A stretch of 64,000 bases of DNA from Antedon mediterranea (taxonomy: Eukaryota; Echinodermata; Crinoidea; Comatulida; Antedonidae). The position numbers were made by a program, and so were the translations under genes. The notes below the pieces were generated by a model. It ran no database searches and had not been told where the DNA came from. It saw only the letters and a program-made list of their open reading frames with translations. Shown here piece after piece: positions 11,935-64,000 of this stretch; position 1 is the stretch's first letter; the number at the start of each line of letters is the position of its first letter. Location: positions 687,001 through 751,000 of the forward strand of contig NC_092680.1 of the NCBI RefSeq assembly GCF_964355755.1, given 5' to 3'.

Positions 11935-14900
11935 GTAGGTAGCATTGTCAACTATTTCAATTCAATACGTTAGAATACAATATTTTTTCGTATTATAAAC
12001 ATATCATAATGTGAATGGAAATGGTTAAAATTACTAATCGAAATCGAAAGTTTAAGAAGGTGTTTAGTCGAATAATGCATTATGTACATTTGAGAATACT
12101 AAAACATTTGTAAGTTGTACGCGAGTGTGATCGAACCCACGAACTTCATTCGTTAAATAGAACAGCGTTACCTAATAAATATCTCCGCCTACTCTAAAAT
12201 TCCCCTTCCATTACATTCCAATTCCATACGATTCCTCCCGAAAATGTATACTTCTTTATTTTTGTGTGAATGCTGTGTGTGATTAAGATAATTTTATTGT
12301 TATTATTATTTTGTATTATTAATAATATTGTTAATTTTGTTTTACTATGAACCTACGTTACTTAAGACAGCTCAGTACTAGATCCAAGGCTATTGAAAGT
12401 TGTCTCCTAAATTTGGATCCTGGTCCGGATTGCCTCCAAATTTAACGGAGTGGTCCTTGACCCCATATCTATGTGGTTTCAATTTGGTAAAGATCTAGCA
12501 ATAATGTTTTGAGTAATCCTGCTAAAAACAACACACAGAAACACGCGATCGACTACACAACCTCTTTTGCGGAGGTAAATATTGTTGAAATAAAAATTAA
12601 CAAATATATTTGTTATTCTCTTCACAAGATGCTCTCAACAAATTCCATAAATGTCCAGCGTACATTCGAATTGATGATGTGAAGGACGAAGTTATCTTAA
12701 GAAGTAGGGGCCAGCAGCTAATCCAACGTTCGCACGAAATTAGAGCTACTTGTAATCCACTGTCTTCAAATGGAAATTCGTTTAAAGTGACCTGTATGTC
12801 TACCTATAATAATGATGGCTGTATGTTTTTCCCTGATATAATAGGTAAGTTATATAACTATATACTTTACAGTGCGCTCTGTTACAACATTAACAGCCGT
12901 TAATGCAGAAACACCAACTTATGTTAAATAAAAATCAACACCATGGTAATGTAACACGGACAACAGCGATTGTTGTAACGAAAATTGCCTCACAGCTGTG
13001 TCAACCTATGTCTAAATGTGTAAATACATATCTTTACTTCTATCAGTCTAACCACATCTCGTAAGCGACCGCCTTCTAAAAAGCGACCATCTGTTAAGAC
13101 CACCTACCCAAAACAGATCATAATCGACTACTCTTCCAGTAACCGCTGCCGTGGACCGTGTTTAGCCGTGAAATGTGCAAATAACCACATTTGTGCAAAC
13201 ATGGCACCCTCAAATGTGCAAATCTGTAAACATGAATGCAGTACTCCACTAATGTGCAATACGGAAGCTTCTATGCAAACATAACGCCGTTAAATGTATA
13301 AACGATCTGTTTTGACCTTAAATGACCGCTCATAATATAATAATACTGCTTATATTTCTATTAAACTCAGACAAAACAAAGCCGCATATAACGTGTCCAG
13401 CCTCTATGGAAACTGATGCGGAGTCCAATCTAACTACGGTGACATGGGATGACCCAGTGGTTAGTGACAACGTTGATATCGAAAAACTTTCAGCTACTTG
13501 TACTCCAGGAAAGGAAACTCAATTTGATATTGGTTTAACAAATGTCACGTGCATCGTGAATGACATTTTTGGTAATGAAAACAGTTGTATGTTTAGTATC
13601 AATATTAAAGGTGAGAAAATATTTACGGATACATAAACATGGCATAAGACATACATAAAACTTTATAAATAAAACAATTTTTAGGTCAAATTAAAAGAAA
13701 ATTATTAGATAAAGAATGAATAAATACAAATATATTTATTCATCAAATCAAAATAAAATAATAGTATGTACAATGATTCAGAAAATGATAAAATGGTGAA
13801 ATGGGGTCTCAGGAAACCAGCAGGTTTGAGTGATAGAGACCCCGCAAATTACTTTGAAAAAAATGATTTAATAAAAAGAGGAGAAGAAGGGAAAAGACCA
13901 AAAAATAGACAAGAAATTTGCAAATTATTTAGAAACAAAATAAACGAAAACATATATATTTATACAGTGTTGTTTATAAAAATATTATAGCAATTTTAAG
14001 ATAATATTATTTACGAAACAAGGATTTGTGTTTTACATGCATACTAATAAGTGACTGATGTAACACATGAAGGAGAGTAAATGTACAAATTAACAAAGTA
14101 ATGAAATAATGTATATTATAGGCCTATACATTATGGCTGAATCGGTTCTTATATTAAAACTATTCTTTAATCCATGGTTGGGGCGAGATTGTTAGAGGCT
14201 CGATAGTCAGCGCGTTGAGAAACGGTAAGAGTAGAAATGGTGTTAAAAAGTTGACAGGAATGAGTAGTGTAAGGAACTTGGAGAATAGTTCGGAGAGCTC
14301 TATTTTAAAGTTTCTGAATCTTAGAGATGTGACTAGGTCCCTTGAGCCCCACACCGTGATGCAGTAATCGATGTGGGGTAAGAATAAAGAATGTAGGTTG
14401 CATGTAATATAAATGATTGAGTGGACGAATAACAGGATGGGAGCTTCGAATAAATGGATGAAGAAATGAATTACCATATATTGCATATACCATTGTGGAT
14501 TTCCTTATAAAAGAAAATATATTTTAAATAAATGAGGTAGGGTCTATATAGATCTTGAAGAATCAAGATTCGATACACTGATGGGTAAATAAATGACACT
14601 GTCACTAGTAATACTGTACAAATCAAATTACCTTACTGGCATCATTTACTTAATTGATTCCTACTATTTATAGACAATAAAAAGCCGAATATAACGTGTC
14701 CAAAGTCTGTGCAAGTTAACGCATGGTCTAATCTAACTACGGTGACATGGGATGACCCAGTGGTTACTGACAACGTTGATAACGAAGGACTTTCAGCTAC
14801 TTGTGATCCAAAGAACCAATCACAATTTGAAATTGGTTTAACAAATGTCACTTGTACCGTTAATGACACTGCTGGTAATATTGGGAGTTGTATGTTTGGT

Positions 14901-17900
14901 GTCAACGTTACAGGTAAGAAATAGAATGTAGGTAATTGCATGTAATTGTTTATGAAAGTTAAGGCGAATTCCAGTCTAACTACGGTGACATGGGATGACC
15001 CAGTGGTTACTGACAACGTTGACATTGAGGAGCTTTCAGCTACTTTGTAGTCCAACAAACCAATCAACAATTGAAATCGGTTTAACAAATGTCACGTGTA
15101 TCGTTACTGATACTACTGGTAATACTAACAGCTGTAGGTTTGGTGTCCTAGTTAAAGGTAAGAACAAATTTACCAATAAATAAACCGATTATAGATTGGA
15201 CATTTTTAACCTACGCTTATTTAAAAAAAAGGACATACCGCTGTAAAAACAACCTAGACCTATATCTTTATGTAATTTAGAAATTTCGCATTTGAGACCA
15301 AATGGATATTACTGGATTTATAGACGAATAGATATAAAAAAAAACATATCTATAAATATTATTGTTTAATATCTATAGACAAAACAAAGCCGAATATAAC
15401 TTGTCCGGAGTCTATGCAAGTTAACGCATGGTCTAATCTAACTACGGTGATATGGGATGACCCAGTGGTTACTGATAACGTTGATTACGAAGGACTTTCA
15501 GCTACTTGTAGCCCAAGAAACGAATCTCTTTTTCAAATTGGTTTAACAAATGTCACTTGTACCGTTTATGACACTGCTGGTAATAATGACACTTGTATGT
15601 TTGGTGTCAACGTTACAGGTAAGAAATAGAATGTAGGTTACATGTAATATAAATGATTGAGTGGACAAATTAATACAGGATGGAAGTTCGAATAAATTGA
15701 TGAAGAAACGAATTACCATATAGTGCATACCATTGTACCATTTCTTTATAAAACTAGAGGGTACTCCGAGAGTACAAACCTCCGCCTACTGTAAAATTCC
15801 CCTACATAAAATGTCCCCGGAAAAAATATATATATATTTTTTTAAATTTTGTTTATTAGTTTTAAGTGTAAATAGGCTAACTGCACACTACGACGTTGTA
15901 GATGAGAGTTTGGTATAATGGTTATGTATCCAGCCTCTCACAATTGAGATCGCTGGTTCAAATCCCACTGAGGTTTTTTTTTTAATTATTATTATTTTTT
16001 TTTTGTGGACCTTGATCTTTGACCCTGACCCTTCTAAATTTAACCACAATTATATGATGAGTCATTGATCATTGTGGCTAAGTTTGGTGAGATTTGAATA
16101 AAAACTGTGGTCTCTAGGCAGTAAAATAGTTTTTATTAGTTGTGACCTTGACCTATGACCTTTTTCCTTTCAAATTCGAACTCGTCCGAGCTTTTGAGGC
16201 ATAGATAATTGTGGCCACATTTGGTGAGAATCGGATAAAAATTGTGGCCTCCAGGCTGTTCACAGGCACACCCCCACACACACACCCCAACACACGCACA
16301 CAACCTCCTTGGCGGAGGTAATAAAACACATTTTAAATAAATGAGGTAGGGTCTATATAGATCTTGAAGATCTAGACAATACAAAGCCGAATATAACGTG
16401 TCCAGAAGTATAATCTAACTACAATGACATGGAGTGACCCAGTGGTTATCTCTATGGACTCGGTGATTTAACGAATAAACTATTTTATTCTATTTAGTTT
16501 TTACTGCTTAATTTTCTTTCAAACTCAGACAATACAAAGCCGAACATCACTTGTCCAAAGTCTATGGACGTTGATGCGAAGTTCAATCTAACTACGGTGA
16601 CATGGGATGACCCAGTGGTTATTGACAACGTTGATACCGAAGGACTATTGGCTACTTGTAGTCCAAGAAACCAATCACAATTTGAAATTGGTTTAACACA
16701 TGTCACTTGTACCGTTTATGACACTGCTGGTAATAATGACACTTGTATGTTTTACATCCGAGTTGCAGGTAAGAGTAACGATCGATTAATAAAGAAATAT
16801 TATTATTACAATTAATCGACAATGTATGAAGACATAATAGCTATGCATATATTCTGGACAGCAATTTTGAAAAATAGATCTGCTGGTCTCCAGAAAATGG
16901 CACTTTAGATGAGTTGAAATTATATGAAACAAACAATATAAGACTTACCAATCACAATTTTGAAAAATAGAGCTGCCAGAATGTTGTACCCCACTCCAGC
17001 CAGTCACAGATTGCAACTCCCTCCTCTCTATCTTCAAGTATACTTGTTTGAAGAGATTCGTAGGAATATGTCACTTTGCAATTTCGAACTACTTTAGTAA
17101 AATTGAAAAGTGAGTGGTTGAGTGTGTGATTTCTATTTTTTTTTACTGCTTAATTTTCTTTCAAACTCAGACAACACAAAGCCAAACATAATGTGTCCAG
17201 AATATATGCAAATTGACGCGGAGTCCAATCTAACAACGGTGACATGGGATGACCCAGTGGTTACTCACAATGTTGATAACGAAGGACTTTCAGCTACTTG
17301 TAGCCCAAGAAACGAATCTCTTTTTCAAATTGGTTTAACAAATGTTACTTGTACCGTTAATGACACTGCTGGTAATAATGACACTTGTATGTTTGGTGTC
17401 AACGTTACAGGTAAGAAATAGAATGTAGGTTGCATGTAATATAAATGATTGAGTGGACGAATTAATACAGGATGGAAGTTCGAGAATAAATTTATGAAGA
17501 AACGAATGATCATATAGTGCATATACCATTGTACCATTTCCTTATAAAATAAAACACATTTTAAATAAATGAGGTAGGGTTTATATAGATCTTGAAGAAT
17601 CAAGATTCGATACACTGATGGGTTAATAAGTAACACTGTCACTGGTCACCGGTGCACTGGTAATACAGTACAAACAAAATTACCTTACTGGCATCATTTA
17701 CTTAATTGATTCCTACTATGTATAGACAATACAAAGCCGAATATAACTTGTCCAGAGTCTGTGCATTTTGATGTGAAGTACAATCTATCTACTGTGACAT
17801 GGGATGACCCAGTGGTTATCTCTATGGACACGGTCAAGCTCAGTGATTTAACGAATAAACTACTTTATTCTATTTAGTTTTTACTGCTTAATTTTCTTTC

Positions 17901-37500: not shown

Positions 37501-40500
37501 AGTATAATAAAAAATAAATAAAAACATAGTTAAATTTAATACAAATTGAATGTCTAATAAATTAATTATTGATTTAAAATATTTTTAGGTAAATGTTCAT
37601 CAATTAATTATTGTGTTAATGGTGGTACTTGTGAACCGAATCCCACTCGTGGTTTTGATACATGTGATTGCGATACGTATTACGATGGATTTTATTGCCA
37701 AAAAAGTGATGGTAAGCGTCGTTTTGATATCTAATTGCAAACATGTCAATTTCGTGTTTTACGAATATTTTATTATTGATACTGACCATAAAAGAAAATG
37801 AGAAACTGGTACAGATCAATTTCCACTAAAGAGGAGTCTTCATAAAAGCATCATGACTAGGCCTACTGCAGGATAAGTACTATATAATAATAATAATGTT
37901 ACACACAATAATAACAATAATAATAATCATAATCATAATCATAATAATTTATTTGAACATACACTTTTGTAACCGTGGCACACTTTGATATAAAAGTGCG
38001 TTCTACATCAATATTTACTAAAACCACATTACAATGCTAACTATAAAACGACTATAAAAATGTAATAATAATGAAAACCAAACAGTACCCTGATATTTAA
38101 AAAAAATCACAAGATCAATGTCCACTTCTATGTAAGCATCATGCAATAGCTTACTACAGGCTATTATAAGTACTGTATACAGGTAATCTGTTTACGAGTT
38201 TAATGGTATTATTTGTCTTATAAAGCTTGGTAACGTAACGCAACCTACGCAACGTAAGAAAATGCCCTTCCAAAAAATGTGTTTGCTCCCGCCTGCGTAA
38301 AATCAAACCCGCGATGTTTGCATCGTCGGTTCCCACAAGCGATTACGCAATTCAGAACTTTGCGTCAATACGTCGTAGCGTTGCGTTACGTAGCGTCGCT
38401 AGTTCAACCACGCTTCAACAACCTACTGTCCTAATGTTATACTGCATTAAGTATCATCATGAAGAACTCCATGTTATAATTACTATGTAATACCTGTTCA
38501 CGAAGCAGGCAGATCTTAATACTTTTATTATTTAAAGGTGTTTTTGATTATGATGTATTCTGCCCTTGTGATCTGAGCTCTAAGCCTATATATATGAACA
38601 AAACGTCATCTACAGTCAAATATGAGGATGAGGATGTATCGGAGATATTTACCTGTAACGGCATCAATGGCCTAACCACTAATATATACATCATTGGTCT
38701 ATCTAAACTATTTTGTAATGAATATATGTCTAATGGTAGCTGTTTGCTGTTGATCTATGGTGATGGTATGTAAGGAAGATTATCGATTTAATTTAAATAT
38801 ACCTCCTATGCATAATATCCAGTGTTGTTTTTTATATTAAAAGTATAAAATAATGTATAAATTTGTCAATTTTGCAACAGCTGCTTTTGAATGACGTAGC
38901 AATGAATTTTCCATCGACGTGATATTTACGAGACTTGCGAAAAAGGTCTCAAAGTTGCTCTCGGATGAGATTCGAAGCCACAAACTTCAGACCACTTTTC
39001 CTTGATTTAACTTATAAAGTTTTATTTCATTTTTATAAAGCTTCAACTCATTACAATACTTGCCCACAATTTATTCGGATTAATTATATGAATAATGACG
39101 TCACGTTAAAATGGGACCAAAACCATCTCATCAAAAGCAGGCATGAATATACTGCTACAGCTACTTGTGTTGTATCATCGTCAACGCCGACAAGTACGAC
39201 TCCTATGTTTCAAATTAAGTGCAAGTTTGAAGGATGTGATTTTTCCGTTGGTGTAAAAGGTAATTTATCTCTTGGTTCTCACTAGTGACGCAACGTAACG
39301 CAATCTACACAACATTAGAACATGCCCTTCCAATCATTTTGTTTTCCACCTTCCTGTGTGAAATCAAACCAGCTATACGATGTTTGCAGTACTATTGCGT
39401 CGTCGGTTCCCACTTGTGATTACGCAATACAGTACTTTGCGTCGATACGTAACTGCGTCGCGTTCTAGTGGGAACCAAGCTTAAATAATGCATTAAATAA
39501 CCGGGCATGTAAAGTGGGGAGGGGGGGGGGGTGCGGGAGTAAAAAAGAGTGTGTATGTTACTACAGTAGAACCTCTTCTTTAGGACACCCCAATTCATCT
39601 GTCACTTTCACAATGTGAAACGAACAATGGATATTTTAACACTGCACGGTCAACTCTTATTAAGGAGACACCCGCATTATGGGGACACGTTATTTGGTCC
39701 ACATGTGCCAAAAAGTACACCTGCATGATTCACTTAAGAATTGGGTACATATTAGGAACAATCCCATCAAATCAATTTTGCTTTACTACCAATATTATTA
39801 TTATTTATAGATAATACAAAGCCGAATATAACGTGTCCAAAGTCTATGGACGTTGATGCAAAGTCCAGTCTACCCAGCTAGCAATTTGACATTGGCCCGA
39901 CGTCGGCAAGCGTCGGCAGACGTCGACAAAGTCGCGGGCAAATTGCCGACGTTATTACAACGTTATTACAACGTGTACTATAAGTCGTGAATTTAATGGT
40001 TGTTAACCTAACGTCCTGCCGACGTCGTATTTACGTTGAAAAATTGACAAAAAAATGTGCCTTGCGATTACATAAATCCAACGTCAGTTTGACGTCGTTA
40101 TCATTGGTTGGCACAACGTCTGCAAACGTCAACATATTAAAGTAATTTTGACACGTCGCATCAACGTTGGCAAAACGTTGTAAAGAGTTGTCAACAATCA
40201 AACGTCGTCACAACGTTGACAATTTGCCAATATATGACAACTTATCAAGTCGGCAAATTATTGTTGGTTTAACGTCGCCATTAGTCGTTGGTTCACCGTT
40301 AGCGAATGTCGACACACTAAAGTCATTTTCCTCACGTTGCACCGACATCGGCTAATGGTTGTAAAATTTATGTAGGCATTTTAACGTCTACCCAACGTTT
40401 GAAATTGGATACAAGACTTTAAGCATTTGGGTTGTTCATTTATGTCGATTCAACGTCAAATAAAAGTTGTTAAGCCAACGTCAGCAATTGTCAACAACAT

Positions 40501-43500
40501 TACATTGACTTGTTCCACGTCATACAGACGTTGGCTTATAGTTGTATACGTTAAGTCGGATATCAAACGTCGTGCCAACGCTTGAAATTGACGCAAAATA
40601 CTATCATTTATGGTCACTATTCTAGCGTCAGTTTAACGTCAAATAAAAGTTGTTAAGCCAACGTCAGCAATTGTCAAAAATATTACATTGACTTGTTCCA
40701 CGTCATGCAGACGTTGGCTAATAGTTGTATACGTTAAGTCTGATATCAAACGTCGTGCCAACGCTTGAAATTGACGCAAAATACTATCATTTATGGTCAC
40801 TATTCTAGCGTCAGTTTAACGTCAAATAAAAGTTGTTAAGCCAACGTCAGCAATTGTCAAAAATATTACATTGACTTGTTCCACGTCATACAGACGTTGG
40901 CTTATAGTTGTATACGTTAAGTCTGATATCAAACGTCATACCAACGCTTGAAATTGACGCAAAATACAATCATTTATGGTCACTATTCTAGCGTCAGTTT
41001 AACGTCAAATAAAAGTTGTTAAGCCAACGTCAGCAATTGTCAACAACATTACATTGACTTGTTCCACGTCATGCAGACGTTGGCTAAACGTTGTATACGT
41101 TAAGTCTGATATCAAACGTCGTGCCAACGCTTGAAATTGACGCAAAATACTAGCATTTATGGTCACTATTCTAGCGTCAGTTTAACGTCAAATAAAAGTT
41201 GTTAAGCCAACATCAGCAATTGTCAACAACATTACATTGACTTGTTCCACGTCATACAGACGTTGGCTAATAGTTGTATACGTTAAGTCTGATATCAAAC
41301 GTCGTGCCAACGCTTGAAATTGACGCAAAATACAATCATTTATGGTCACTATTCTAGCGTCAGTTTAACGTCAAATAAAAGTTGTTAAGCCAACGTCAGC
41401 AATTGTCAACAACATTACATTGACTTGTTCCACGTCATGCAGACGTTGGCTAAAAGTTGTATACGTTAAGTCTGATATCAAACGTCGTGCCAACGCTTGA
41501 AATTGACGCAAAATACTAGCATTTATGGTCACTATTCTAGCGTCAGTTTAACGTCAAATAAAAGTTGTTAAGCCAACGTCAGCAATTGTCAACAACATTA
41601 CATTGACTTGTTCCACGTCATACAGACGTTGGCTAATAGTTGTATACGTTAAGTCTGATATCAAACGTCGTGCCAACGCTTGAAATTGACGCAAAATACA
41701 ATCATTTATGGTCACTATTCTAGCGTCAGTTTAACGTCAAATAAAAGTTGTTAAGCCAACGTCAGCAATTGTCAACAACATTACATTGACTTGTTCCACG
41801 TCATGCAGACGTTGGCTAATAGTTGTATACGTTAAGTCTGATATCAAACGTCGTGCCAACGCTTGAAATTGACGCAAAATACTAGCATTTATGGTCACTA
41901 TTCTAGCGTCAGTTTAACGTCAAATAAAAGTTGTTAAGCCAACGTCAGCAATTGTCAAAAATATTACATTGACTTGTTCCACGTCATGCAGACGTTGGCT
42001 AATAGTTGTATACGTTAAGTCTGATATCAAACGTCATACCAACGCTTGAAATTGACGCAAAATACAATCATTTATGGTCACTATTCTAGCGTCAGTTTAA
42101 CGTCAAATAAAAGTTGTTAAGCCAACGTCAGCAATTGTCAACAACATTACATTGACTTGTTCCACGTCATGCAGACGTTGGCTAATAGTTGTATACGTTA
42201 AGTCTGATATCAAACGTCGTGCCAACGCTTGAAATTGACGCAAAATACTAGCATTTATGGTCACTATTCTAGCGTCAGTTTAACGTCAAATGAAAGTTGT
42301 TAAGCCAACGTCAGCAATTGTCAAAAATATTACATTGACTTGTTCCACGTCATGCAGACGTTGGCTAATAGTTGTATACGTTAAGTCTGATATCAAACGT
42401 CATACCAACGCTTGAAATTGACGCAAAATACAATCATTTATGGTCACTATTCTAGCGTCAGTTTAACGTCAAATAAAAGTTGTTAAGCCAACGTCAGCAA
42501 TTGTCAACAACATTACATTGACTTGTTCCACGTCATGCAGACGTTGGCTTATAGTTGTATACGTTAAGTCTGATATCAAACGTCGTGCCAACGCTTGAAA
42601 TTGACGCAAAATACAATCATTTATGGTCACTATTCTAGCGTCAGTTTAACGTCAAATAAAAGTTTGTTAAGCCAACGTCAGCAATTGTCAACGACATTAC
42701 ATTGACTTGTTTCACATTGACTTTATAGTAACAATTGTATTACTGGTTAAGTCGGATTTTAAACGTCGTACCAACGCTTAAATATTACAAACATATCGTG
42801 TTTATTCCAAACTTGATAGAGTAACTGATTGACAACTTACTAAATAATACAATACCCCACATAGAAAAGTTGATTCAAACAAAATGCAATATTATGTTTT
42901 GATATGGATATTAAAGAAAAGTAGGCCTATATTCTTCTTTAGATTGTTTCTAAATATTTTTGAACATTAATTAGGACATCTAACTTTATATATTAAGAGA
43001 ATGTCTGTACACTTATCGTTTGAATGCAGCTATTGAAATGGAATGATTGATTTAATGATGGTCATCCTAATTATGGTTCCATTTAAAATAAATGGCGCCC
43101 CCATTCAAGAAACTGAATGGAATCAAAGATCTTATAAAATTAATGAAAATACAAAATCTACAATTTACAAGGAACCAATTATTGGTATTAAAAGATAAAT
43201 ATTGAAATATGTACTTGGCTATTTTTCTAAACGGAAAAATGCAACCATACCACCATACATCATAAATGCAAAATAAAGAAAAACGATTAAGTTCATTCCA
43301 CTGATAATACGTTTAATTGCATTTTCATTTCAACAGCCTAACATTAAATTTATTTAAAAACATTTGTCAAGATAGATATTGGGAATACACCTCCATTTTT
43401 TCGCAATATAAGAGAAGCTAATAACGAATTGACAAATGGTCAAACAATAAACGGTCTCAGAAAACGATGTTATAACGTTCATGATCTGTAATGTTCGCTG

Positions 43501-46500
43501 ATATTATAAAAACTAAAAAGTAGGCATAGGTTAAGTTTAATTCGTAGTAAGATATATGTGTGTATTATATTATATACTCCAAAGTAACTAAATTCTACAG
43601 AGGCTTCAAATTTAATTTATGTAAAAATAAAAATTGTACATGAATGTTAATGAACTATTTGGGCTTATAAACTTATGTTATGTTATGTTCTAAATTACCG
43701 AACGTAAAACAAAAAATGATGAGATACAAAAATGTGGATAAAGAAAGAAATAATGCGCAAGACATAAAATTAAAATAATACATTATTATGTAAGCAGTGT
43801 ATAAATTGTTGAACAAAGTATTAATATAGTTCATATGTTATATATTATTTGTCTTGTTAAATAAATTTGTAAGGCCCTATACTGTTATTCTTTAAGGAAA
43901 GTTGATATACCCTATTATTTTATGCCTATTAATAGTATTAATATTGTTTAAGTAAATATTTTGTCTAATTGCCTTGATTTTGTGTATAGGCCAATGGCAT
44001 CAAATTTGTCTCAAAGCAAATTAAAGACACTTTTAGACACATGATTCATTGATTTCTGATATAATATTCTGTACTTGTGTATGCATTACTAAAATAGTTA
44101 TATTATGTTTCATTTATAATGTATGTAAACATTTATTCATTTTTTTAAAACAAATCGGTGCACTTTTTCTGTTGTTTTTGTTTAATTAATTTTAATTAAA
44201 ATTATGACAACAATTCCTATCTAACCTAGATTCACACAAAAACAATTACTTCCTAATAAAATTGTATAATGGTATACATTACAGAGCATTGAATAAACTC
44301 GAGCGGAATATTAACGCACATAAAAAAACATTCATTTTCTTGTCGAAAAGTGCCCTCTCTAGTTTTCTATTGATTTAATAATTATTAATAATTAATTAAT
44401 GGGTAATATTAAAATATTTTTAACTTTTAATGTTAGAAGTTGGTTCTACTCCTAACCAAGTTTCATATCTCCAAATTTCAACAAGGTAGACAAAGCACTT
44501 CAATAAATATCACATTTAACATCACAAATTAGGGTTATGGATTGAATTTTTGCTAATAATTTTCGATAAAAAATACTTTTCGTATTTAAAAACATTTGAT
44601 ACTTGGTGTGAATATTCAATATAAGTTGCTCTATCCATATTGCTAAAGAAAAATAAATATCAAACCATAATTCACTGATTGTTGTGATTTACGTTTTTAC
44701 AAAATTTACACTTATGAACGACCATACAATTCCAACTCATTTTTTCAACCTAAGAACGATTTAAAAAAAAAAAACCAACAGAAAAGGGTTATGAAAGCAA
44801 TTTTGTTTCTGTGAATAGAGCAACCTATATTGAACATATAAAACGAGTTTCAACTGTTTTTAAATACGAAAAGTATTTTTTATCGACGTTTTTTATATAT
44901 GTTTTTAGGCAAAAATTTCTTCAATAACCCTAATTTGTGATGTTAAATATGATATTTATTGAAGTAATTAGACAACGTTGTTGAAATTTGGAGATATGAA
45001 ATTTTGTTAGGAGTAGATCCAACTTCCTACATTAAATGTTAAAAACATGTTAACCTTACCCATTAATTAATTATAAATAATTAATAAATCAATAGAAAAC
45101 TAGAGAGGGCACTTTTCGATAAGAAAATGATTATGTTTTTATGTACGTTATTATTCCGCTCGAGTTTATTCAACATACTGTATTGTATACTACAGTAATA
45201 TACTATTTTATTGGAAAGTAAATATTTTTGTGTGAATCTTCTTGGAGTTCTTTGAAAGAGTATCCGCTTATACTTCTTTTCTTCAGATTCAACATCTGAT
45301 TTAGGTCTTAAATGTGCACACACACTTCCTGAACCAACATAGTACATTGAAAGTCAAATGAATTGTTTTAACTTTTTTTATTGAAAACAATCTGACTCAA
45401 AACATATTATCAGTGACAATAATAGAAAGGTTAGATAGGTTTGTTGTAATAATTTTTAATTAAAATTAATTAAACAAAAAACAACAGAAAAGTGCACTTT
45501 TTTGTTTTAAAAAATGTAAAAAAATGAATAAATATTTACTTACATTATAAATGTAAACATTTCGATAAGAAAATGATTATGTTTTTTATGTACGGTATTA
45601 TTCCGCCCGAGTTTATTCAACATACTGTATTATTATACTATTTTATTGGGAATACATTAATTTACACATTCATAGAAATATATGGTTCATACTTTTTTAA
45701 CATAAATATTTAGCCATTTACTTTGATCGATACATTTATAATTTATACCGATAATAGTACACCTATTATTGTATAGCATTACCATGTTTTCACCCATATT
45801 AATAATTCTGCATTTTCAATTCAATAATCAATTTCATTTATTTATTTCAACACACATTTAAATCGGTGATTGACAGCAAAATAAATAAACAACAGGCGCG
45901 TATCTTAATACATGTATACTATTTGTAAATATTATAAACAAAAAACATATATATAGAAAATGAAATGAAGTACATTTAGACCATTTTGAGCATATTTTCA
46001 CTTATTATTAGGCCTATGTCAAAAACCGAAATTGAAAATGATAAAAAAAAAAGCTGAATGAAAAAATATTTAGGCCTACACATGTTGCGGGGATATATTA
46101 AAAAATGATTTCGTAATTGGTACTTCTCTTTAAAATGTACTAATTTCACTATTTATTTTGTTTGGATTTTGAAATTATTAAATACGAATTATACTACTTT
46201 TATCCATATGTACTGTACGATATTTGTACTAAATCATTTCTCCAAATAAACATTGTGTTTAAAAACTTAAATTGCTCTCTGTTTGCGCTGTATGCAACAT
46301 TACATATACGCATTGGCTTCGGTTGGGGGAGGAGGGGGAATTACCAACCTGACGTTTATTACAATATCGGAGCAACAGATACTGTAATGCGTAAGTTCAA
46401 CAAAAGATGCGCGTAGGCCTACACAGTGTTTGTGCGAAATGTGTGTTTCATTAAAAATGCGAGACCCGTGACGTGTTAAAACTCTGTGAGCTGATATTAT

Positions 46501-49500
46501 AGTTTGACAATAGGGAATGGTGTGTGGGGTGCTACAGTCCGCAGTAAATTGGAGGGATACGTGGGACTATGGGCAGTAGCGAATTAAAAGTTCACACCAT
46601 ATTAATTCTAAAAATAATTGATGAGATGCTCTTTAGTTTTCGTTTTAGCTATTAATGTATTTCATTCAGCAGAACATTTTATTTAAATTACATTCGTATA
46701 CCCCTTCAGTTAAGATACATAAAAAGTGTGTGCGGGTGGCCGTTTCGAAAACGCGGATGTTAAGTTTTGATGGATGTAACTGAACATATTTGGAGGTGCG
46801 AAAAAGTCTCCACGACATTGGCCCATCATGTTTTTTACTTCATTTCCAAATAAACATATAGTGTTTTAAGGATGAATGATAAAATAATTTGATTTTTTTT
46901 TTATTTGATTTGAGTATTTAAAAACTTTAATTACTCTCTGTTTTTGCATACGCTGTTTTTTGATACTTTATTCACATGCCGATGTAAATGTCCTTCAATC
47001 CTGTCGGTTGTTTACGAAAACCGAATGCCAATGCTTATATCGTAAACAACCGACAGGATTGAAGGACATTCGCATCGGCATGTGAATAAAGTATCAAAAA
47101 CAGCGTATGCAAAAACAGAGAGTAATTAAAGTTTTTATATACTCAAATCAAATAAAAAAAAAACTCCTACCAGCGTGCAAAAATGCATTACTGTAGGTAT
47201 TCTTGGGAATGGGATATGTAACTAATTCCACGTGTAAATCGAGTCGACTTGACACGGATGCCCGGATGTACTCTCCTAAATGTTTTAAAAAAAAGCCAGA
47301 GACGATATATATATATATAAATCACTTGCACTGATGAAGGGCTAGTGTTGGCCGAAAGCTCTGCTAACTTTTCTGACTGTTTTACTTATCGTTTTGATTT
47401 AGCTTTCTCTTTTTTTTGTATCTCCATTGAGATCCAGCCACAGCATTGTCATTTTTTCAGTAATTTGCCTTTGGATTTATAAATCAATACATACTTTAAT
47501 GTCCAATCATACTCAATTCATTCTATTGAATGTTTTAAGTAGAATTGGGCAATTGTAATAATTCATAATTATATTATTAGACCTATGTACAGAAAAATGA
47601 AAGAAATGTATCGGTTCAAATATATACAGCCCAAACAACACATTTGAAATGTAACACAAACACACACACCCCAGACCCACTGTAGGTACAGAACATTCAT
47701 TCTTAGCCGCCCGGTGATATAATTTAATTAACTAATTATTTTAAAACGATCATGTAATGAGGAAATCTGTGAGAATAAGAACAATTTAGGAACCCTCGCT
47801 TGATATGCTGGTGCTTTCATAGTGTTTTTCAAATTCGACTGGGCATAATCAACAAACAAAAGCCCTAATGAGGTTTCGTAAAATAATACAGTGATATTTT
47901 ATTTTACAAATACAATCAATTTTAGGATTTTCTTATACATAATAGTTTGGTTCTTTATCAGTATTGGATAGTGTAATAAATGGTCATTAATATTATACAT
48001 AGAAATTATTTATTTAATTATAAATAGAAAATTAGGCCATATCAAATACCAGTGAACATCCGTTTAGCCCGTTTGAAATTCAATCAAACCTATTTGGTTA
48101 ATAATAATTTAATGAGTTCAGAATGTATACCTTTTTATCCGCATACGATATTTGACTATGTATTTATGTAAATTATTTGATATGTTTTCCAATAAACAAT
48201 GTACTGATTTTTGTTTTAACACTTTGCAATGATGAATGATAAAAGGGTCTATTTTTTGTAATTGATTTGGGTATTTGTAACTTTCCATAGCTCTCTGTTT
48301 TTTACTTTATTCACATGCCGATATGAATGTCCTGGAGTCCAATCGGTCATTTACGAAAACAGAATACACTGTAATAAGCATGATTTGCATAGAATTCTCA
48401 TAAAATCCTGTGTTTATATCTCAAAGGTCACTAAACAGTCCCAGAAGACAGATCATTCAAGGTTATGATATGAATGGTGAACTAGCAAATAGCTCAACAT
48501 TTTGATTACAAAATGCTTAATTTAAACACAAAGGAGAATGTACATAGGTATACAACTCCCTGGGTAGACATTCTGTGAACACCACTACTCGTAGATTTGA
48601 ATGTATAGATAGATAAATAATATATAATGTGATGATCAATGAAGAATGATAATCTCATGTAAAATCGAAACCTTGCATTGAATTGACAATGATTTTTAAT
48701 ACAACAAATTCAATCAAGGTGCTTGATATAAATATTCTTTTACATTTCACATTAACATTATACCGACGATAATGATGGTGTATAATTATATGTGACTTGG
48801 TGGAGACTCTTACCCCAACCCGGTTTATAAATTACAATTCCGTCTGCTGTATTGCTTATTGTTATTGGATATACTCTTGTTTTTAAACCGTAAATATTAA
48901 AAAAACGACGAACTCTTTCATGGTAAAGAAATAACCATCATCCATACAAAAAGATAGATCTCGCAGATTTTTCTTTGTTTAAAGGTTCATGTACAAAAAT
49001 AAGGAAAAACTGGCATTTAGGGGTAATGTTGTATCAAAATAATCTGATTTAAAGTGTACATTTGAACCATCTCAAGGATGTATGGTATGTGGATGTTGGT
49101 TGAGAATGAGAGGATGAGCTGAGGTGGGGTTGGTGGTTAGATGGGGATTCAGAGATAATGAATCAAAATGAATTCTTCTGTGAAGGATTTAACCTGTGAT
49201 TTCAATCATTGCAATCATGCATGGTCTCCATGAAGCAAATAACTCCCACCCTGGGGCAGGTATTTGTATCTGCTACCTTCTAATAAATATAAGAAGTCTG
49301 ACAGTTTAGCATACCAGATGATTTTAATGCATTTTTATTTTATACTTTACTTTTAACTTTATTAAATTGTACAATCATTTTCATAAATCATAATAAATAA
49401 ATAAGTCTATATGCAGACTTTTGTACTAGGTTCTCCCAACCAAAGGGCCAATAAATTTACCTGTCATGGACACTTGTTGTGTGCTATACCAATTAAGGGA

Positions 49501-52500
49501 TTGTGACTTAAAGTAAGATGTCATCTTTTTTGTGGCACGCCTAATTGGCGACAGAAGCTGTGTTAGCCTCTTTTGTTGCTCCATGGCGCAAAATCTAGCT
49601 ATTTTTTGTATTGTTATGTTTGTATAATTGTTTTTGCCGAAATTAATAAAATAAAATATAATAATCTAAATTTCTTCTTAAAGATGATGAGTTATTTAAG
49701 TTTGATCAAAAACTAACTCATATATATCAAAGTTATGCGATGAGGTCATAATTGCTACACCCATTTTACAATCTTAGTTTGTGTACATTTTATCATCGAG
49801 TTGAACAACAACTAAAATACAACTGTATCACACATTCATCAAACAATACTGTATAAGTAATAATAATCCCTTCTACATTGTAGTTGTGGGCCCTGTACTC
49901 TGCTAAAGTTACTTTAAATACACGTAATACATTTGACATATGCCTACAATCATGTACTGTACGTGTACTTGAACAAAGCATGTATTTGTGTTTATTCTGC
50001 ATGTTGTCAACCCCGATATCTACTCGCAGTTTCCGACTCGCAACTCGCACTTTCCGACTCGCAACTCGCACTTTCCGACTAGCAACTCGCAGTTTCTGAC
50101 CCGCAACTCGCACTTTCTGACTCACAATTCGCACTTTCCGACCCGCAACTCGCACTTTCTGACTCGCAATTCGCACTTTCCGACTCGCAACTCACACTTT
50201 CCGACCCGCAACTCCTAATAGGAGTTATCGCGGGAAAAACGAATACTGTAAGCCTATACTACAATGAATCATAATTTATCTGGACTCAAGAAAATTTGAT
50301 TCTATTTTGTATCTATACATACTGCTCTTATTCCGTTCTCTCATTCGGCTAGGATGTACTTGATGTAATACTTTTTTGTATGGAATCTCTGCCTCGACCA
50401 AATGATGCTTTTTGTTTTTGTTTTTATTTTTATTATTATATTTTTGTTTATTAAATATACATATGTTGATGTTTGATTTGGTAGAAATAAATGTTGAATT
50501 GAATGTTTGCGATATACTATGATATGACCTGATGCATATCTGATGCATATACAGTATATACACTTTTAGTACTGAGTGCCTATATTATTTGTACGTGTCA
50601 TCTAGTTGATGAGCCTAGTACAGTATAATAATATATAGAATACAAATCCAACATTCTTCAAAATTCTATGATGTGGGTAACATGGGTACCTTACTGTCAA
50701 ACTACTTTACATTGCATTCGTTTATCATGAACGGATTGTGATTGACTTTCCAGTCCGCGAATGTCCTTGCCTGTTGGAATTTGATTTACAAGCGTGATTG
50801 ATTTTGACGGTAGCTTACCATTGAAAAGACCAAAAAACATTCTAGCACACGCTGTCGTCCCTGTATCACGCTCAGAACTTGCTGCTCAAAAACTTTTTGT
50901 CATCGAAACTGTAGGCCTACTGAAATTTTATTTAAAAGTTCCTGATTGACCTTTTCTGTTTCATCAATTGTTCGACTTCTTCAAATACAGTGAGTAATAA
51001 TAGAACATTTGTATTATATTAATTTGAACAACATTTTACAATTATTAAAACAGTACTGTATTACTGTAACTATGAATGTAAATAGTAAAATTTACTGTAA
51101 AAGAACTCTCCGCAATAGAGCCAAAAGAAGGGCTAATGAGATTGTAGGGCAAATTGGTAGGCCTAGGCCTAATGTGAATTTTGATACGGATAATGTAATT
51201 AGGCCTATTAATCCACGTTATTATAATGATGAACACGTTGACGACGGAAGTGTCAATATTACTCCGTCTCTACCTCCTTCTGATAATAGCCAAACTGACA
51301 ATGTCACTACTAGTACTACTAGTCATGATGACCAGAGTGTTAGTAGTCTTAATAAAGCAAGTAGTAGTAGTGTTACTTCCAGTTGTAGCCTAACTAAAAA
51401 TAGTCCCAAACGTTGTAGTAATATCAGCAGAATTGAAATTAGTAGCAGCAGTAGTAGCAGCAGTAGTATAAATGATATTGATCGTAGTAATAGTAGTACT
51501 AGTTCTACTATTATTAATACTACCACTACTACCAGTGGTGGGGGTAGTAGTAATTTTAGCCTATCTCATCCTCCTTATTTTTCAAGTAGTCCGGGCAATA
51601 CTTCCTCTAGTTCTCTGTCCGATGATGAGGAAGACAACATTAATCCTTCAACTACGATAAGAAATGAACTCTGTAGATGGGCTATTGAGAGCCAAACACC
51701 ATCATGTCATGTTACTTCACTTCTTAGTATTCTTAAAACTTGTGTACCAAATCTTCCAAAAGATGCATGAACATTAAAACATACCCTTACTTCATACCGA
51801 CTAGAGGACATTGCAGGAGGGACATACCATCATTTCGGAATTGCCAAAAATGTAATTTCTATTCTTTCTGTCGATGACAAGTTTTGTGGTATCACTAGTT
51901 TACGTCTACAAATCTTCGTTGATGGTTTACCACTTTTTAAAAGTAGTAATGTCCAATTTTGGCCAATACTTGGCCGACTGGAATTGTATGAAAGTACTGG
52001 CCCCTTCATAATTGGGTTGTATGTTGGAACTTGGATGACATCCAGAATATTGAAGAAAGCCTTAAAGAAAGGGCAAATCAAAAGGCCCTAGTAGGTTTAA
52101 TATTTTACTTAAAATAATAATAACAACGTTCTCAATTAATTAATCATTCTGCTTTACATAGGATGTATTCAAATATTTCAATTAATGTTAAACCAAATTG
52201 ATTAATGTATTGTTTGAAGGTTTGCATGGCGAAATCAAATTTGCGTTTTGTGCTTTGATCATCCTCATGAGTGAGAATGGGCCTCCTGAGGAAGATTAAA
52301 GCACATTGATCGAAACGTCGAGAAACTCAACAGTTCTTTTCAGAACTAATTTACGTGGTGTGCCGCAAACTTTAATCAACAATATTAACTAATGTTTTTC
52401 ATCTACGTTATGTTGAAAATGTCTTGTTTTAACAATTTCTTTATTTTTATATTTTAGATTTTGCGATTATGCAGTCTTGGTGGCCACAATGAAACAGATG

Positions 52501-55500
52501 TCCTCAATAGGATAATGGGTCATCTGCTTTCAAACACACTTGCCTCAGAATTTAATTGGATGGGAAGAGGGGATAAGAAGGGATTCAGAGGACTAAAGCT
52601 TTCAAAAATTGTAAAAGGTAAATACTCTAATAAACAGCACCCGCCATTCCAAGATATACACTGGTCCCAACATTGCTTCGGTGATTTGACGAGAACTGGT
52701 GTTTCAAAGTGTGTATATGAATTACCGTCTGACTGATTTTGGACGGAGATGCACACATAAAATTGGATGTCTCTTCCTCGTTTTCAAAATAATATTTTAA
52801 AAATCTTATTTAGTATTATTAAAATAATTATTTCAAATGCATAATTGCTTGTTTTATCTTGCTAATAGGGAAGCAAGAGGCTTTTGATTATATATTTTTC
52901 ACATGAGATAAAGTATTCTGTTGATGCACAATGTTTGTACACTTTGCAGTTTCAGCTAGAAGATCATGGACCGGAATGACGGAGGCCACATGTGAAAATA
53001 AAATAAAATCTTGGCTGAAATACAGCAAGGACAGAGCTGGGGGAAGAAAACTTAGGGAACAAAAGAAGAAAGGTCAGTTCAATAGTTAAATTTAGTATTT
53101 AAAGATGTTTGTACTTTACTTGTAAATCAGGTATCAAGTCATTTTAAACCACCATCATGACGGCAACAACAATAATCCATGCTGGTGGTTATTTATTACG
53201 ACTACTAATTTTCAAACTAGAATTTAATTCGTCTCTTTAACGAATTATAAGTGATGTCATTTTATAATTTTACTGACATTTATTTTAAAACAAATCATGC
53301 ACTTACGTTAAAATACCATCGCAAAATGTTGATACTGTATAATTATGGCATCTTTTGACCTGATGCATTTACGCTTATAGTGCTGAGTTATAATTATCTA
53401 CAGCATATGTACATCTATATATAGCATAGGTGAAATTTTTTTTTTTTGGTATGATGGCGTTATCAAAGTAAACATGAAGATGATGAATTGAGCAAAAAGA
53501 TAAAAGATTTGGAATAAAATTAATTGGGCACGTAAAAGGGCGGCGGTGCGCGCTTTTTGAAATTTGTACAACTTTTACTAAAAACTAACATTGTGTTAAA
53601 TAAATTGCAATGCGATAAGCTTTCTACTATAGCTTATGGTTTGTAATCACTATGTGTGTATTTAGTAAACGTATATAATTTACAGTTAATTGACAATAAC
53701 TTGCTTTTCTTTTCTCTTTGTAGCAGCTGCAGCAGCAGCAAACACCGACGAAGCCGAAGATACCATAGATGATGATGATGAACTTTTTATTTGAATTGTT
53801 GGTTATCCGTATACTGGATGCTTTTACGGCATCATATTGCCAGTAGATTTTGTAAAATAGGATTTGTTTTTTCTTTGGTACTATTATTCATATTTAAAAG
53901 AGCGCATCTCGCTTATCGATACCCCATTTCTCCCAGCTTTAAATATTTTCTTATTCAATAAATCATTCCTCGCATGAGTAGTAAACTTTTTAATTTTGAT
54001 GACCTCATTATGTCTCAACATTTGAACAACATGGGTTAATTAATTTAATCTATATAGTAAATTGTAATCTATAGCCCCTCAGGATGAAAAGTGGCCCTCA
54101 TGATTAAATGTGTGCTCAAATTAACTTCCGAATTGATGAAATGTTAAAAACTTGATTAAAATGTAATCAAACGTTGCAATTAATTATACATTTTTACATT
54201 CTTAAGAGACGAGTTCAAATCTATATAGTTTATTTGATTTTTAATTGTCTAGTTTTTAAATGTTTTACTTAAATTGTTTATCATTAAATAAGTATACCTT
54301 TAATAAAAACAATTTCCAATCCAATATTTGCAGAGTACCGGCATTATTTAATTGTTAAGTTTCATTCATATTCATTCGATGGTACAATCTATTTACTACG
54401 GTGAATCGATGTAAATTAACACAGCTACTCCAACACGTTGTGCTCACGCATAACCGACGAATACAAAATACGATGACCGACGTAATCTATGACTTTAAGC
54501 CGACGTTGACCCAACACATTGGGCGAACTAATGCCCAACGAAGAACAATTACGTTAAACCAACGTCATCAAAAGTTGTTAGACCAATGTAATATAAATGA
54601 CGTTAAGCCGACATCAACCCAACACGTTGAGCCAACCTAGACACGACAAATAAAAAAATACGTTGAACCAACGTCATCAAAAGTTATTAGACCAACGTAA
54701 TGTATATGACGTTAAGCCGACGTCAACCAAACACATGTCGGGCCAACATCGTTAAAAGATGTTAAGCCAACCATAAATGACGACGTTTGTCCGACGTTGC
54801 CCGAACACGTTGTGGCAATGTCTGTCCAACGCGTTGGGCCCACTAAGGGCCGATGTAAAAAATAACGTTGGGCCTACGTCGGTAAAAGTAACGTCGGGCC
54901 TACGTCGGTAAAAGTTGTTAAGCCAACCATAAATAACGACGTTTGTCCGACGTCGCCCCAACACGTTGTTCCGATGTCTGTCCAACGCGTTGGGCCCACT
55001 AAGGGCCGACGGAAAATATTACGTCGGGCCTATGTCGCGGTATAAGATGTCGAGCCAACCATAAACGACGACGTTTGGCCGACGTCGCCCCAACACGTTG
55101 TTCCAATGTCTGTTCAACGCGTTGGGCCCACTAAGGGCCGATGGAAAAAATTACGTCGGGCCTACGTTGGTAACAGTAACGTCGGGCCTACGTCGGTAAA
55201 AGATGTCAAGCCAACCATAAACGACGACGTTTGGCCGACGTCGCCCCAACACGTTGTTCCGATGTCTGTACAACGCGTTGGGCCCACTAAGGGCCGATGG
55301 AAAAAATTACGTCGGGCCTACGTCGCCTAAAGTTGTTGGCCCAACGTAACTGTTGACCTTACGCCAACGTCGGTACAACGTGTGATTGCTAGCTGGGTAA
55401 CTACGGTGACATGGGATGACCCAGTGGTTAGTGACAACGTTGACATTGAGGAGCTTTCAGCTACTTGTAGTCCAAGAAACCAATCAACATTTGAAATCGG

Positions 55501-58500
55501 TTTAACAAAGGTCACTTGTACCGTTAATGATACTGCTGGTAATACTAACAGCTGTAGATTTGGTGTCCTAGTTAAAGGTAAGAACAAATTGACCAATAAA
55601 TAAACCGATTATAGATTGGACATTTTTATACCACTAGTAAAAATAACCTAGACCTATTTCTTTATGTAAAGGATGGAAACCTAACAAATAAAGTTTTATG
55701 ACATTTTTTAAAACCACTTTGATCTTCAATTAAAGGTTTTATATTTCATAGTCTTTTTAAATTCTTATTGGAGACAAATTAACAGATAATTAAAACATGA
55801 TTAATAATTGACTATAAATAGATCAAATAAAATAAATCATCTCCTTCTAACAAATATTATTATGATAACGCATGGAACGTTGAGTAAGTTTCAACGTAAC
55901 CTTTTCCTTCACCATAAATGAAATTATTATCAAATGAATAGATTATTTATTTTATTTTATTTTATTCACTCGAAACCAACAGCGATAATTACCGCCACTA
56001 ACAGGTTTGATACAAACAAAGCCAGGACTGTTTAAAGCACCTTGATTGGTCCTGACATTGATCAAGGGCTTCTCTCGTCCAGTTCCCACCTTGACCAGAG
56101 GTCTGAGGCAGATACTAGATGCAGGGGCTGCCATAAGAGTCATCAGTGCTTATTTCAAATGCCTAACGGGACCCAGCTCCGTATACAGCACCCGCTATTC
56201 CCAGATGGTCTCCCATCCAAGCTCTAACCAGGCCGAACATTGCTTAACTTCGGTGATCTGACGAGAACCGGTGTTTCAACGTGGTAAAGCCGTATACAAT
56301 TATTATGAACTAAGCCACTGAACGAGATACAAAAGAGGAAAACAAACTTAAATTTGATTATTTGTATTCCCTTGTAGACAATACAAAACCGACTATAACA
56401 TGTCCAGAGTCGATGCAAATTGATGCTGAATCCCGTCTAACTACGGTGACATGGAGTGACCCAATGATTACTGACAATGTTGATACCGAAGGACTTTCAG
56501 CTACTTGTAGTCCAAGGCAATCGCCATTTGGAATTGGTTTAACAAATGTCACATGCACCGTTAATGACACTGCTGGTAATATTGGGAAATGTGTGTTTGT
56601 TGTTCAAGTTACAGGTAAGACAAAATCGATCAGTTAAATAAACAAATGAAACAATTATACAGCAAACAATCATTGTATTTAATTAACCTTGGAATAGGAA
56701 GGCAATCACGTTAACCACAAAGTAACATATCCACTAAATGTTGCTACAATAATAAACTATTTTTGGAAAAAATGAAAGAGAAAATAGGAATATTGGCAGC
56801 TAAATAAATAACAAGGAATTGAACGAAATACAAGAGAGGAAAACAAAATTAAATTCTTGCAGATTGAATTTGCATATTTTCATTCCTTGGTAGATAATAC
56901 AAAGCCGAATATAACGTGTCCAAAGTCTATGGACGTTGATGCAAAGTCCAGTCTAACTACGGTGACATGGAGTGACCCAGTGGTTAGTGACAACGTTGAT
57001 ATTGAAGGAGTATCGACTATATGTGATCCAGGAAAGGAATCTCAATTTGAAATTGGTTTAACAAATGTCACTTGTACCGTTTATGACAATGCTGGTAATA
57101 TTGCCAGTTGTAGTTTTGGCGTCCGAGTTGCAGGTAAGATAATAATAAATGAATTAGCAGTTAACGATACATAAAACATGTCACTCAATATAATACACGG
57201 AATGGTGGTTGCATATTAGAAACATCATACAACAATATAATTTGCTTCATTTTACAGACAATACAGAGCCGAACATAACGTTTCCAGAGTATAATGGACA
57301 TTGATGCGAAGTCCAATCTAACTACGGTGACATGGGATGACCCAGTGGTTATCTCTATGGACACGGTCAAGCTCAGTGATTTAACGAATAAACTACTTTA
57401 TTCTATTTAGTTTTTACTACTTAATTTTTTTTTCAAACTCAGACAATACAAAGCCGAACATAACTTGTCCAGAGTATATGAACATTGATGCGGAGTCCAG
57501 TCAAACCACGGTGACATGGGATGACCCAGTAGTTAGTGACAACGTTGATGCCAATGGACTATTGGCTACTTGTCGTCCAGGAAAGAAATCTCAATTTAAA
57601 GTTGGTTTAACAATTGTCACGTGTACCGTTACTGATGCTGCTGATAATATTGGCAGTTGTAGTTTTGATGTGCTAGTTACAGGTGGTACAGGTAGGCATA
57701 TTTTATTCATTATAATAGTGCTTTAAATATAAAATTTTTCAAAAGCATAATGAAATATTAACTTACACTATACATTAAACTGTGATAATTATTTACTGAT
57801 TGTGTTTCTATTTAGAGTATGCTATATTTAATACAATTTGTGTTTATTTAAGTCCTATTTATATTGTTGTGTCCTCTTATATTATCTACACTACTTACTT
57901 AATCAGTAAACTACCTAGAAAGTAGGTATAGCGCTAAATGCACCTTTTTGACTTACACTTTCTTGTTTACCAAAAATCATAATTTGAGCATCATTTATAT
58001 AAATTTATAAATATAAGAATTAAATACATATAAAACCTGAATCTAATTGTTTTTACAGAATGCCAAGACGAAGAAAAAGAACTGAATTGTTATACACCTA
58101 CTGTGGTTAGTATCAACTAATTATGGAAAGAAACGTTTCAAACATATTGAATAAAATATAATAATAATTAATGACTCAATCCTCAACGAGAACTTTCCAA
58201 AACTCTTTCGTTCGGTGGTTGTATGTTCACTCGTTTTTTAGCCAAATTAAAATTCAAAATAATATCAGAATGAAATACTCTAGAAGAGCGCATTAGATTA
58301 CTATACTTGCGAGTTAGATTCAGAGAGAATTGCTTTGTTTTATTTCTGTTTCCTGAACAGTGAAAGACATATTCAAAGCTATTCTCATGTGTTACCTTAT
58401 AGGACCCGATTGTGAATGATTTTAAGGAATTTGAAAGTCAAGTACTTTCTCTAATAGCAGACATAGAAGTCGGCGAAGAAATAGTATTTGAAGAGCAAGA

Positions 58501-61500
58501 TTATGGTATAAAATACATATTTTGTGAATTTAACTGGAATTGTAGAAAATGAAAAAATATTCTATAGGCCTAATGATGTTGAATTTATTCTCTTTTATTT
58601 TCGTTTTTCTCGATTACTGGGTACTAGCAAAACTTGTCTAAAGCTAACTGGAGATTCCATCTTTGATTTTTAAATTACTTCAAAAAGAAGAATAATTTGA
58701 TGAAAATGTTTGTTATTCACGAATTGCACTCGTAGATGGATAATCTATCTGAAAGAATTCAAAATGCTTTGGTTTTTTAATTTAATTTTAATCTCAATCT
58801 TTGATCAAATCTCAAATATGGTAAAATGTTTTTGGCTGCTATTAATGTATCATTTCTCACTTTTCTAGTTGGACTTGCTAAAGTACAGAAAGTTAACGGT
58901 AGTGAATTGATAAGAGGTGAAATAAACCTTCCTGACAATAGTAACATGGAGTTTATTCTTCAAGTACAAACTAATGATGAAGGTAACGAATTGCAAATCG
59001 CAAATCGATAATGTATATTGTTACTATTAAACCACATTTAAGCTCTGTCTACACTATCAAATTTGATGTGACAACAAAATGTGATGTGCCCATATATGGA
59101 CATGATGATGACATATCACTACCATATTTAGGCACACCACACTTGTTTGTCAAACTGTGTTAACAGAGCATTTGTCGACCACTTAAATCGGTCGACGATC
59201 TTGCATCCAGAATCTGACATTGTAGCAGATTATTATCTTACACGCGTGCCTAAATAATTCCTAAAAAATATTATATTGTGCTGTATTTTAGTTGACTTAC
59301 TAATAGTTGCTTCGTGGACTTACAACCAAGTTACTGAGAACCAAACTGTGAAAGAAAGCGTTTTTATTGACGGCTCGTGAGTATACTAATATAGTATGAG
59401 TTTATGAATGGTATTCTTATTGTAGCATGGTAATGGATAAATCTAATTCTCACAATATAAACATCGCATTCAACCCATCAACTCTAACTATAAAAGAGAA
59501 GGAGTGGAAAAAATACATTTAATTTGTGGAATAAAAATTGCCAAAACAGACGCCACTTGCTTATCTTTTGAAACCGATATTTGAAACATTCAAGCATATC
59601 TGATTTAAAGATGTATTGTCCTTTTGACTAATTCCAAAAAAATAAAAAATAAAAGTTTAAAAAAAAGTGGGTCATTTTGAAGTATCATAATAGTTTAATT
59701 AACTTTCACCAAAAATTAGTCGAAAAAAAAATCATGCATAATGCATACCCGTGGTTTGAAATCTTTACTTTACTTTACTAGCGACGATTTCCTGACGAAA
59801 TGTAATCAAATTAATTTACCTGTTAATTACGTAAACTTGTTGTTTTTGGCTTGAATTTTCCACTTAAAGTGAATAAGTTTAATATTACTTTGATATGGCC
59901 AATTAAATTAAAAATATTTCGACCTTTGTGTTTGAAGGGACAATACATCTTTGATACATCATCAAATGTTATCAATAATATAAACTTATTTATATTGTAG
60001 AAGTACAAGTTAATCCTGGTCTTGCATGTTTGTATTTAAATATTTTAACTGTAACTTTATTTTTCCTCAACAAAGCCTGGGTCACTTTTTATTTTGACAC
60101 ATTGATGGATAATTTTGTTTTTTTATAGACAATCTAAGGATGAATTTCGATATTTTACGGATATGTTCTCATGCAGTGTTTTTGATATCGAAAACAACTT
60201 AATTAAGTTAAACGCAACATTAAACTTTCATGAAAATAAGGTAGATGATATAGTTTATAGTATTCAATTAGGCCTACCAGGGAAGACTGTCACTATTCTC
60301 TGGGTCTACAATAATAAGAATAAGTGGGTAGGTGTAGTGTATGTGATGAACATGCACGCTAAATCCTCGACAGATTATAAACTTTAATTTGAGACTAATA
60401 ATATTATTACTACTGTATATTCCTATATTCTATTCATTTTAGAAAATATCAAATTTAATTTAAAAGGCATGAGTGTTATATATTAATAATAGTTTGTATT
60501 TGTTTACATATGCTAAACCTGATTCTACTCTACGTTATACAATTACAGATGGCGCCAACAGAAAGTGACAAAGTAATTGAAACAATATGCCTCTTTTATG
60601 ATGAAACACTACGGTAAGATTTTTCCACAGACGAGTACGGGGTTACCCCGGTGTCCACACCCCCACTGTCGTGCACAGACTCTTTTGTAAGAGTAAGAGT
60701 TTAATAGAGTATTTATTGAATATCATGTGACCCACAATCCTCCAATGAAATGACAAGAATCTAATCAGGTGTGTTATACCGATAGTCAATCTCTCAGTAT
60801 TTTAAATAAAATATAAAGTTGTTTCCTGTGATTACTAGTACAGTAGCTCACAGTGGATTTCCAGAAGAAAATAAATAAACCTTCTGTCTATGACATTTCT
60901 ATACTTCATTTATATTTTATTGAATAAGGGGTTGGAGTGATAGAGGTATGACAACTTACAATACCAATGACAGACTAAATTGCTCTTCGAACCATATCAC
61001 CAGCTTTGGAGTATTTATGAAGATTAGTAATTCACCAGAGGTAAAACATGTGTTCATTACTTACAAATTAACGAAAGAAAAGAAAAACGTCCCACTCGCT
61101 AAATTTGTTGTAGGTATACATTGCTATTTTGGTAAAAATTTACAGTACAATGAAATACTTACAAAATGTTATAATCTAATGTGGAATATACCGAAATGTT
61201 TATTTTGAGACAAAGAATACAAGCCGTATTTGGAATTTGAAGTATCTTGTTTAGGCATATTTGTGTTTAGAAGTGTTAACTGAAGTTCTTCTTTATTTTG
61301 TGTTTTATGTAAAAGTTTTAACATTATTATATCCTATAGCCTCTTGAGAGTGATACAGGCTTAAGTAGGTTGTCGAGAATTTGTATCTACTGCTCACTCA
61401 CTGCTTTGTGTGTTACTCTTGGAATGTACTGTTCATTTTCGTAAGTTTATTTTAATAACAACTGATAAGTGTGAAATTATCGTGTACATTTATTGGTTAT

Positions 61501-63900: not shown

Positions 63901-64000
63901 GTAATACTATATTATTAATACTCATCATCTCTAATGAAAATAAAACAATATTTTCTTTTACACTTTCAATTGGTGTACCAATTGAAATTAATACATTTTT

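Follow-up and report, generated by a model that had tools for sequence, protein, structure and literature searches.

A HYR exon in an adhesion-GPCR-like gene of Antedon mediterranea is split by a 15.5-kb copy of a CACTA/EnSpm-like transposon

Introduction

In the 64,000-nucleotide stretch of Antedon mediterranea DNA analysed here (the window), a 15.5-kb element at 39873-55397 interrupts one of the HYR exons in an adhesion-receptor gene. This raises the question of what kind of element it is, how it came to lie inside a coding exon, and what becomes of the receptor gene that carries it.

The insertion site

The split exon and the borders of the element are laid out as follows.

39811..39872, + strand: split HYR exon, 5' half, 62 nt
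39871..39872, unstranded: target site duplication TA, left copy
39873..39885, + strand: left terminal inverted repeat CCCAGCTAGCAAT
55385..55397, - strand: right terminal inverted repeat
55398..55399, unstranded: target site duplication TA, right copy
55400..55577, + strand: split HYR exon, 3' half, 178 nt, followed by a GT donor; HYR match in Pfam

The 13-bp terminal inverted repeats are perfect, and a scan of the window for TACCCAGCTAGCAAT gave two hits and no more, at 39871-39885 on the + strand and, inverted, at 55385-55399 on the - strand; the chance expectation is 0.09 even with two mismatches allowed. When the flanks were joined by script, the two halves gave an exon of phase 1-1 with an AG acceptor and a GT donor, translating as NTKPNITCPKSMDVDAKSSL followed directly by TTVTWDDPVVSDNVD...VLVK without any stop, and the 3' half matched the Pfam HYR domain with an E value of 3.8e-9. 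Thus, the exact transposon insertion claimed in the initial annotation was borne out by the inverted ends, the TA duplication and the open 62 + 178 = 240 nt exon, and its coordinates were correct to the base, including the skip junction from 39259 to 56378. Comparison with sibling exons, named there as a possible refutation, likewise supported a lost 240-nt exon, as the siblings in the window are also 240 nt long and run uninterrupted through CTAACTACGG at the site, reading CAGTCTAACTACGG or AATCTAACTACGG across it.

One sibling exon is identical over 65 nt to the 5' side of the split exon (39808-39872 versus 56891-56955), while the introns preceding the two differ, which suggests a recent exon-level gene conversion or duplication.

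The host gene and its tandem paralogue

Downstream of an EGF domain at 34159-34248, the host gene carries HYR exons, a GPS motif and 7TM-like exons, and a tandem paralogue upstream carries SRCR, HYR, GPS and similar transmembrane exons. From the order and strand of these domains we infer that each set forms a single gene, and the host would accordingly be adhesion-GPCR-like (EGF, HYR repeats, GPS, 7TM-like exons). The host EGF exon is adjoined at 34244-35153 by a tandem array of 28-bp units in which GC skew is strong. The parts of both genes that bear on the split exon are listed here.

14948..15157, + strand: dead exon of the paralogue that corresponds to the split exon; lacks the acceptor and the 5' end and has an extra base near 15045
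39058..39259, + strand: diverged HYR-like exon that precedes the insertion in the host gene, with an approximate start and a donor at 39260
56378..56615, + strand: next intact host HYR exon, end approximate
57258..57350, + strand: truncated relic of a HYR exon, present in the host gene and, at 17725-17853, in the paralogue
60927..61013, + strand: GPS motif of the host gene, E 2.3e-4, just under the cut-off
62071..63918, + strand: exons resembling adhesion-GPCR transmembrane segments, recognised by eye

The initial annotation regarded the gene as otherwise intact, which is too strong a description, as the truncated HYR relic is present and the check covered part of the gene. Among related exons, the split exon is closest to its counterpart in the paralogue, with 95% identity over 230 nt, of which about 50 nt belong to the intron that follows. 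Since this counterpart has lost its 5' end and acceptor and has gained an extra base, the exon was lost there by separate lesions. This loss, together with the HYR relic common to both genes, indicates that losing one HYR domain is tolerable in principle, and it is plausible that the host tolerates the loss of the domain encoded by the split exon.

The element and its family

When the genome that contains the window (one assembly of 354 Mb in 18 contigs) was searched by paired ends, it gave at least nine copies with both ends, the window copy included, on C1, C2, C3, C4, C5, C6, C7, C9 and C11. All nine are flanked by perfect 2-bp duplications (C1 AA, C2 TT, C3 AT, C4 TA, C5 CA, C6 TC, C7 TT, C9 AC and C11 TA). 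The TA duplication previously proposed is therefore right for the window copy and does not hold as a family rule, since the 2-bp duplications vary in sequence. A Tc1/mariner element, which inserts at TA only, was rejected on the basis of the AA, TT, CA, TC, AC and AT duplications found besides TA. A further element of about 4 kb with similar ends, flanked by AA and AG (C1:11197888-11201900), is probably an older short derivative.

The copies differ in size, with 19,910 bp for C2, 19.4 kb for C6, 15.5 kb for the window copy and 14.3 kb for C4, and the transposase frame of C2 is open over 800 residues. The window copy contains the following parts.

40452..42715, unstranded: left subterminal array, 183-bp unit x 12.4, ACGT-rich
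51074..52032, + strand: transposase remnant, start of the main exon, broken by a TGA at 51768-51770
52032..52033, unstranded: internal deletion junction, about 3.6 kb (C2 positions 12933-16523) absent
52458..52617, + strand: predicted downstream exon of the transposase gene, with a weak DUF4806-like stretch (E 0.13, not significant)
52950..53072, + strand: predicted downstream exon of the transposase gene, splice sites placed by eye
53724..53795, + strand: predicted last exon of the transposase gene (by eye), ending in TGA, with AATAAA about 160 nt downstream
54737..55326, unstranded: right subterminal array, 132/156-bp units, ACGT-rich

Apart from the missing block and a smaller number of 183-bp units in the left array, the window copy is colinear with C2. 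ACGT motifs number 11-21 per 500 bp at both ends of the element compared to 0-4 in the middle. The in-frame TGA of the window copy is an arginine at the same place in C2 and C6. Because the 3.6-kb internal block is absent and this stop codon is present, the window copy cannot make an intact transposase. None of the six frames of its 3' part matched Pfam, since the catalytic exon is deleted. The earlier view of a single DNA transposon hence stands in a refined form: the element derives from a 19.9-kb CACTA/EnSpm-like transposon by internal deletion and is non-autonomous. C1, C3, C5 and C4/C9 carry other deletions across this stretch, where the copies on C1, C3, C5, C7 and C9 were compared at their ends and around the deletions; one deletion is common to C4 and C9, indicating that deleted copies multiply.

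Within the element, nested inverted repeats at 44108-45629 and 46893-48365 suggest that further transposons had inserted into an ancestor of the element; C2, C6 and C4 are colinear across both.

The transposase and its superfamily

Transposase_21 and DUF4218 are two domains of CACTA/EnSpm transposases. The C2 protein was aligned with three distant relatives from the genome, which are 31-36% identical. Transposase_21 was matched by these three relatives (E 1.4e-5 to 6.2e-4, below the curated cut-off of 28.6 bits) and was without a match in the element's own protein. DUF4218 was matched at the expected place, after the catalytic core, by three proteins, with E values of 0.002 for C2 and of 1.8e-4 and 1.6e-5 for two relatives; none of these matches reaches the 27-bit cut-off. 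Among the acidic residues considered for a DDE arrangement, D285 and D363 are invariant in the four sequences, and each directly follows a predicted strand in an RNase H-like order. The AlphaFold model has a confidence of about 50-80 at these places and low values elsewhere (mean pLDDT 38), and is too weak to confirm a catalytic fold; a profile search of solved structures gave no match.

The CMCT clade is described (PMC12730594) with the motifs C(2)C and H(3-4)H between the second D and the last E, with duplications of 2-5 bp, and with ends that are in most cases CA..TG. A C(2)C motif follows the second D of our alignment, with C382 and C385 invariant in all four sequences, while for H(3-4)H we found by eye only the single conserved H419 and H443, which are not 3-4 residues apart. 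The ends begin with CCC and are neither CACTA/CACTG nor CA..TG, forms that CACTA/EnSpm elements usually but not always have, being CCCAGCTAGCAAT in the nine copies and CCCAGCTAACA in a distant relative, and the 2-bp duplication, seen in nine copies of the family and two of the distant relative, falls within the CMCT range. We therefore consider the family CACTA/EnSpm-like, with Pfam matches that are weak and a lineage assignment that is left tentative.

The distant relative with CCCAGCTAACA ends (C4:23784644-23800143 and C8:7974279-7989782, duplications TA and AA) constitutes another EnSpm-like family, whose transposase shows about 31% identity and in which each copy has an open frame of 684 residues and the two copies are 99.4-99.8% identical over the parts compared. 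Since its ends are related to those of the element, such ends mark a lineage rather than a single family.

Age of the insertion

Outside the arrays, the cores of the copies diverge by 0.14-0.25% over about 7.1 kb, in which the window copy has seven private substitutions. These values support the young insertion previously claimed and indicate that the family has been mobile in this genome until very recently; we estimate that the insertion is very young, with its age bounded by this divergence. Allelic diversity in marine invertebrates commonly exceeds such divergence, and it is thus plausible that the insertion still segregates and that the sequenced animal may carry it on only one of its haplotypes. 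This would extend the preferred explanation rather than compete with it. The few private substitutions speak for it; on the other hand, a search for an empty site in the single assembly found none. We consider the chances of a segregating allele to be even. A more far-reaching proposal, which we find doubtful, is that a distinct animal EnSpm-like lineage with CCCAGCTA[A/G]CA ends and varied 2-bp duplications is active now and that the split exon segregates, altering HYR number.

Fate of the receptor transcript

The reading frame of the split exon runs into a TAG just inside the element (CTA CCC AGC TAG). The transposase gene lies in the sense of the host, and the AATAAA near 53957, past its last exon, may cause an early transcript end. 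Both features would speak against the receptor being rescued easily, and are consistent with a dead gene whose transcript ends inside the element, so that the receptor is lost and the similar receptor gene upstream covers its role. However, the remaining HYR exons appear open, as do the transmembrane exons, and an insertion this young would not yet show decay, whichever way the gene has gone. We regard a dead gene as possible but less likely than not.

Proposed origin of the split exon

We are highly confident in the overall explanation that the element goes back to a cut-and-paste CACTA/EnSpm-like (CMC-type) transposon of about 20 kb, of which it is a non-autonomous copy with an internal deletion, and that it was inserted at a TA in the HYR exon, probably after mobilisation in trans. 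A transposase from an intact relative in the same genome would have recognised the CCCAGCTAGCAAT ends and probably also the ACGT-rich subterminal arrays, in the manner of subterminal binding sites in CACTA elements, and integration into the adhesion-GPCR-like gene would have created the 2-bp duplication. If the gene survives, it would do so by skipping the exon, with 39259 spliced to 56378 in frame and one HYR domain fewer. With its transposase gene broken, the window copy depends or depended on a relative for movement, unless the deletion followed the insertion; the deletion could indeed be the later event, so that for this particular copy mobilisation in trans is probable rather than certain.

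An assembly artefact, in which a repeat was misplaced inside the exon of this one assembly by an assembler confused by the 65 identical nucleotides, is very improbable because the nine copies each carry a perfect 2-bp duplication of varied sequence, and is further opposed by ends that stop exactly at the inverted repeats as in the eight other copies, halves that join to exactly 240 nt in frame, and a 3' flank that runs into an intron 95% like that of the paralogue. The 15.5-kb exon insertion is real and precise, but is an event of a well-known kind.

The locus allows a test, exact to the base, of whether a gene in which domain exons are repeated and matched in phase tolerates 15 kb inserted into one of them, and the tandem paralogue can serve as control. 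With near-identical full-length copies and several deletion derivatives, the family may be a large animal DNA transposon that is still active. What deserves to be followed is the ends and duplications of the lineage and the state of the paralogous exon.

Comparison with known systems

Deletion derivatives of the dSpm/Ds type keep their ends, have lost the middle of the transposase gene and require an intact relative for movement. The window copy resembles them in its kept ends and lost transposase middle, but at 14-15.5 kb the deleted copies here exceed them in size, owing to the arrays and to a left part that is long and non-coding.

Literature searches found nothing relevant on the end sequence or on CACTA elements of animals that make 2-bp duplications. 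Like CACTA/EnSpm elements, which are placed with Mirage and Chapaev in CMC and belong to the CMCT clade (PMC12730594), the family consists of large cut-and-paste elements with short inverted ends, subterminal repeat arrays and internally deleted non-autonomous copies, and its transposase lineage has the C(2)C after the second D and weak similarity to Transposase_21 and DUF4218. In contrast, its ends are CCCAGCTA[A/G]CA instead of CACTA/CACTG or CA..TG, its duplication is a varied 2 bp instead of 3 bp, and H(3-4)H is not evident. ESTA and Plavaka are CMCT lineages described from fungi that have EnSpm-like transposases, with 2-bp duplications in PlavakaA and TA duplications in ESTA (PMC12730594). 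The family shares such transposases and 2-bp duplications with them; however, the ends reported for Plavaka are TGT..ACA or CATCA..TGATG, and the family is not bound to TA as ESTA is. The ends and duplications described here thus widen the range of CACTA-like elements.
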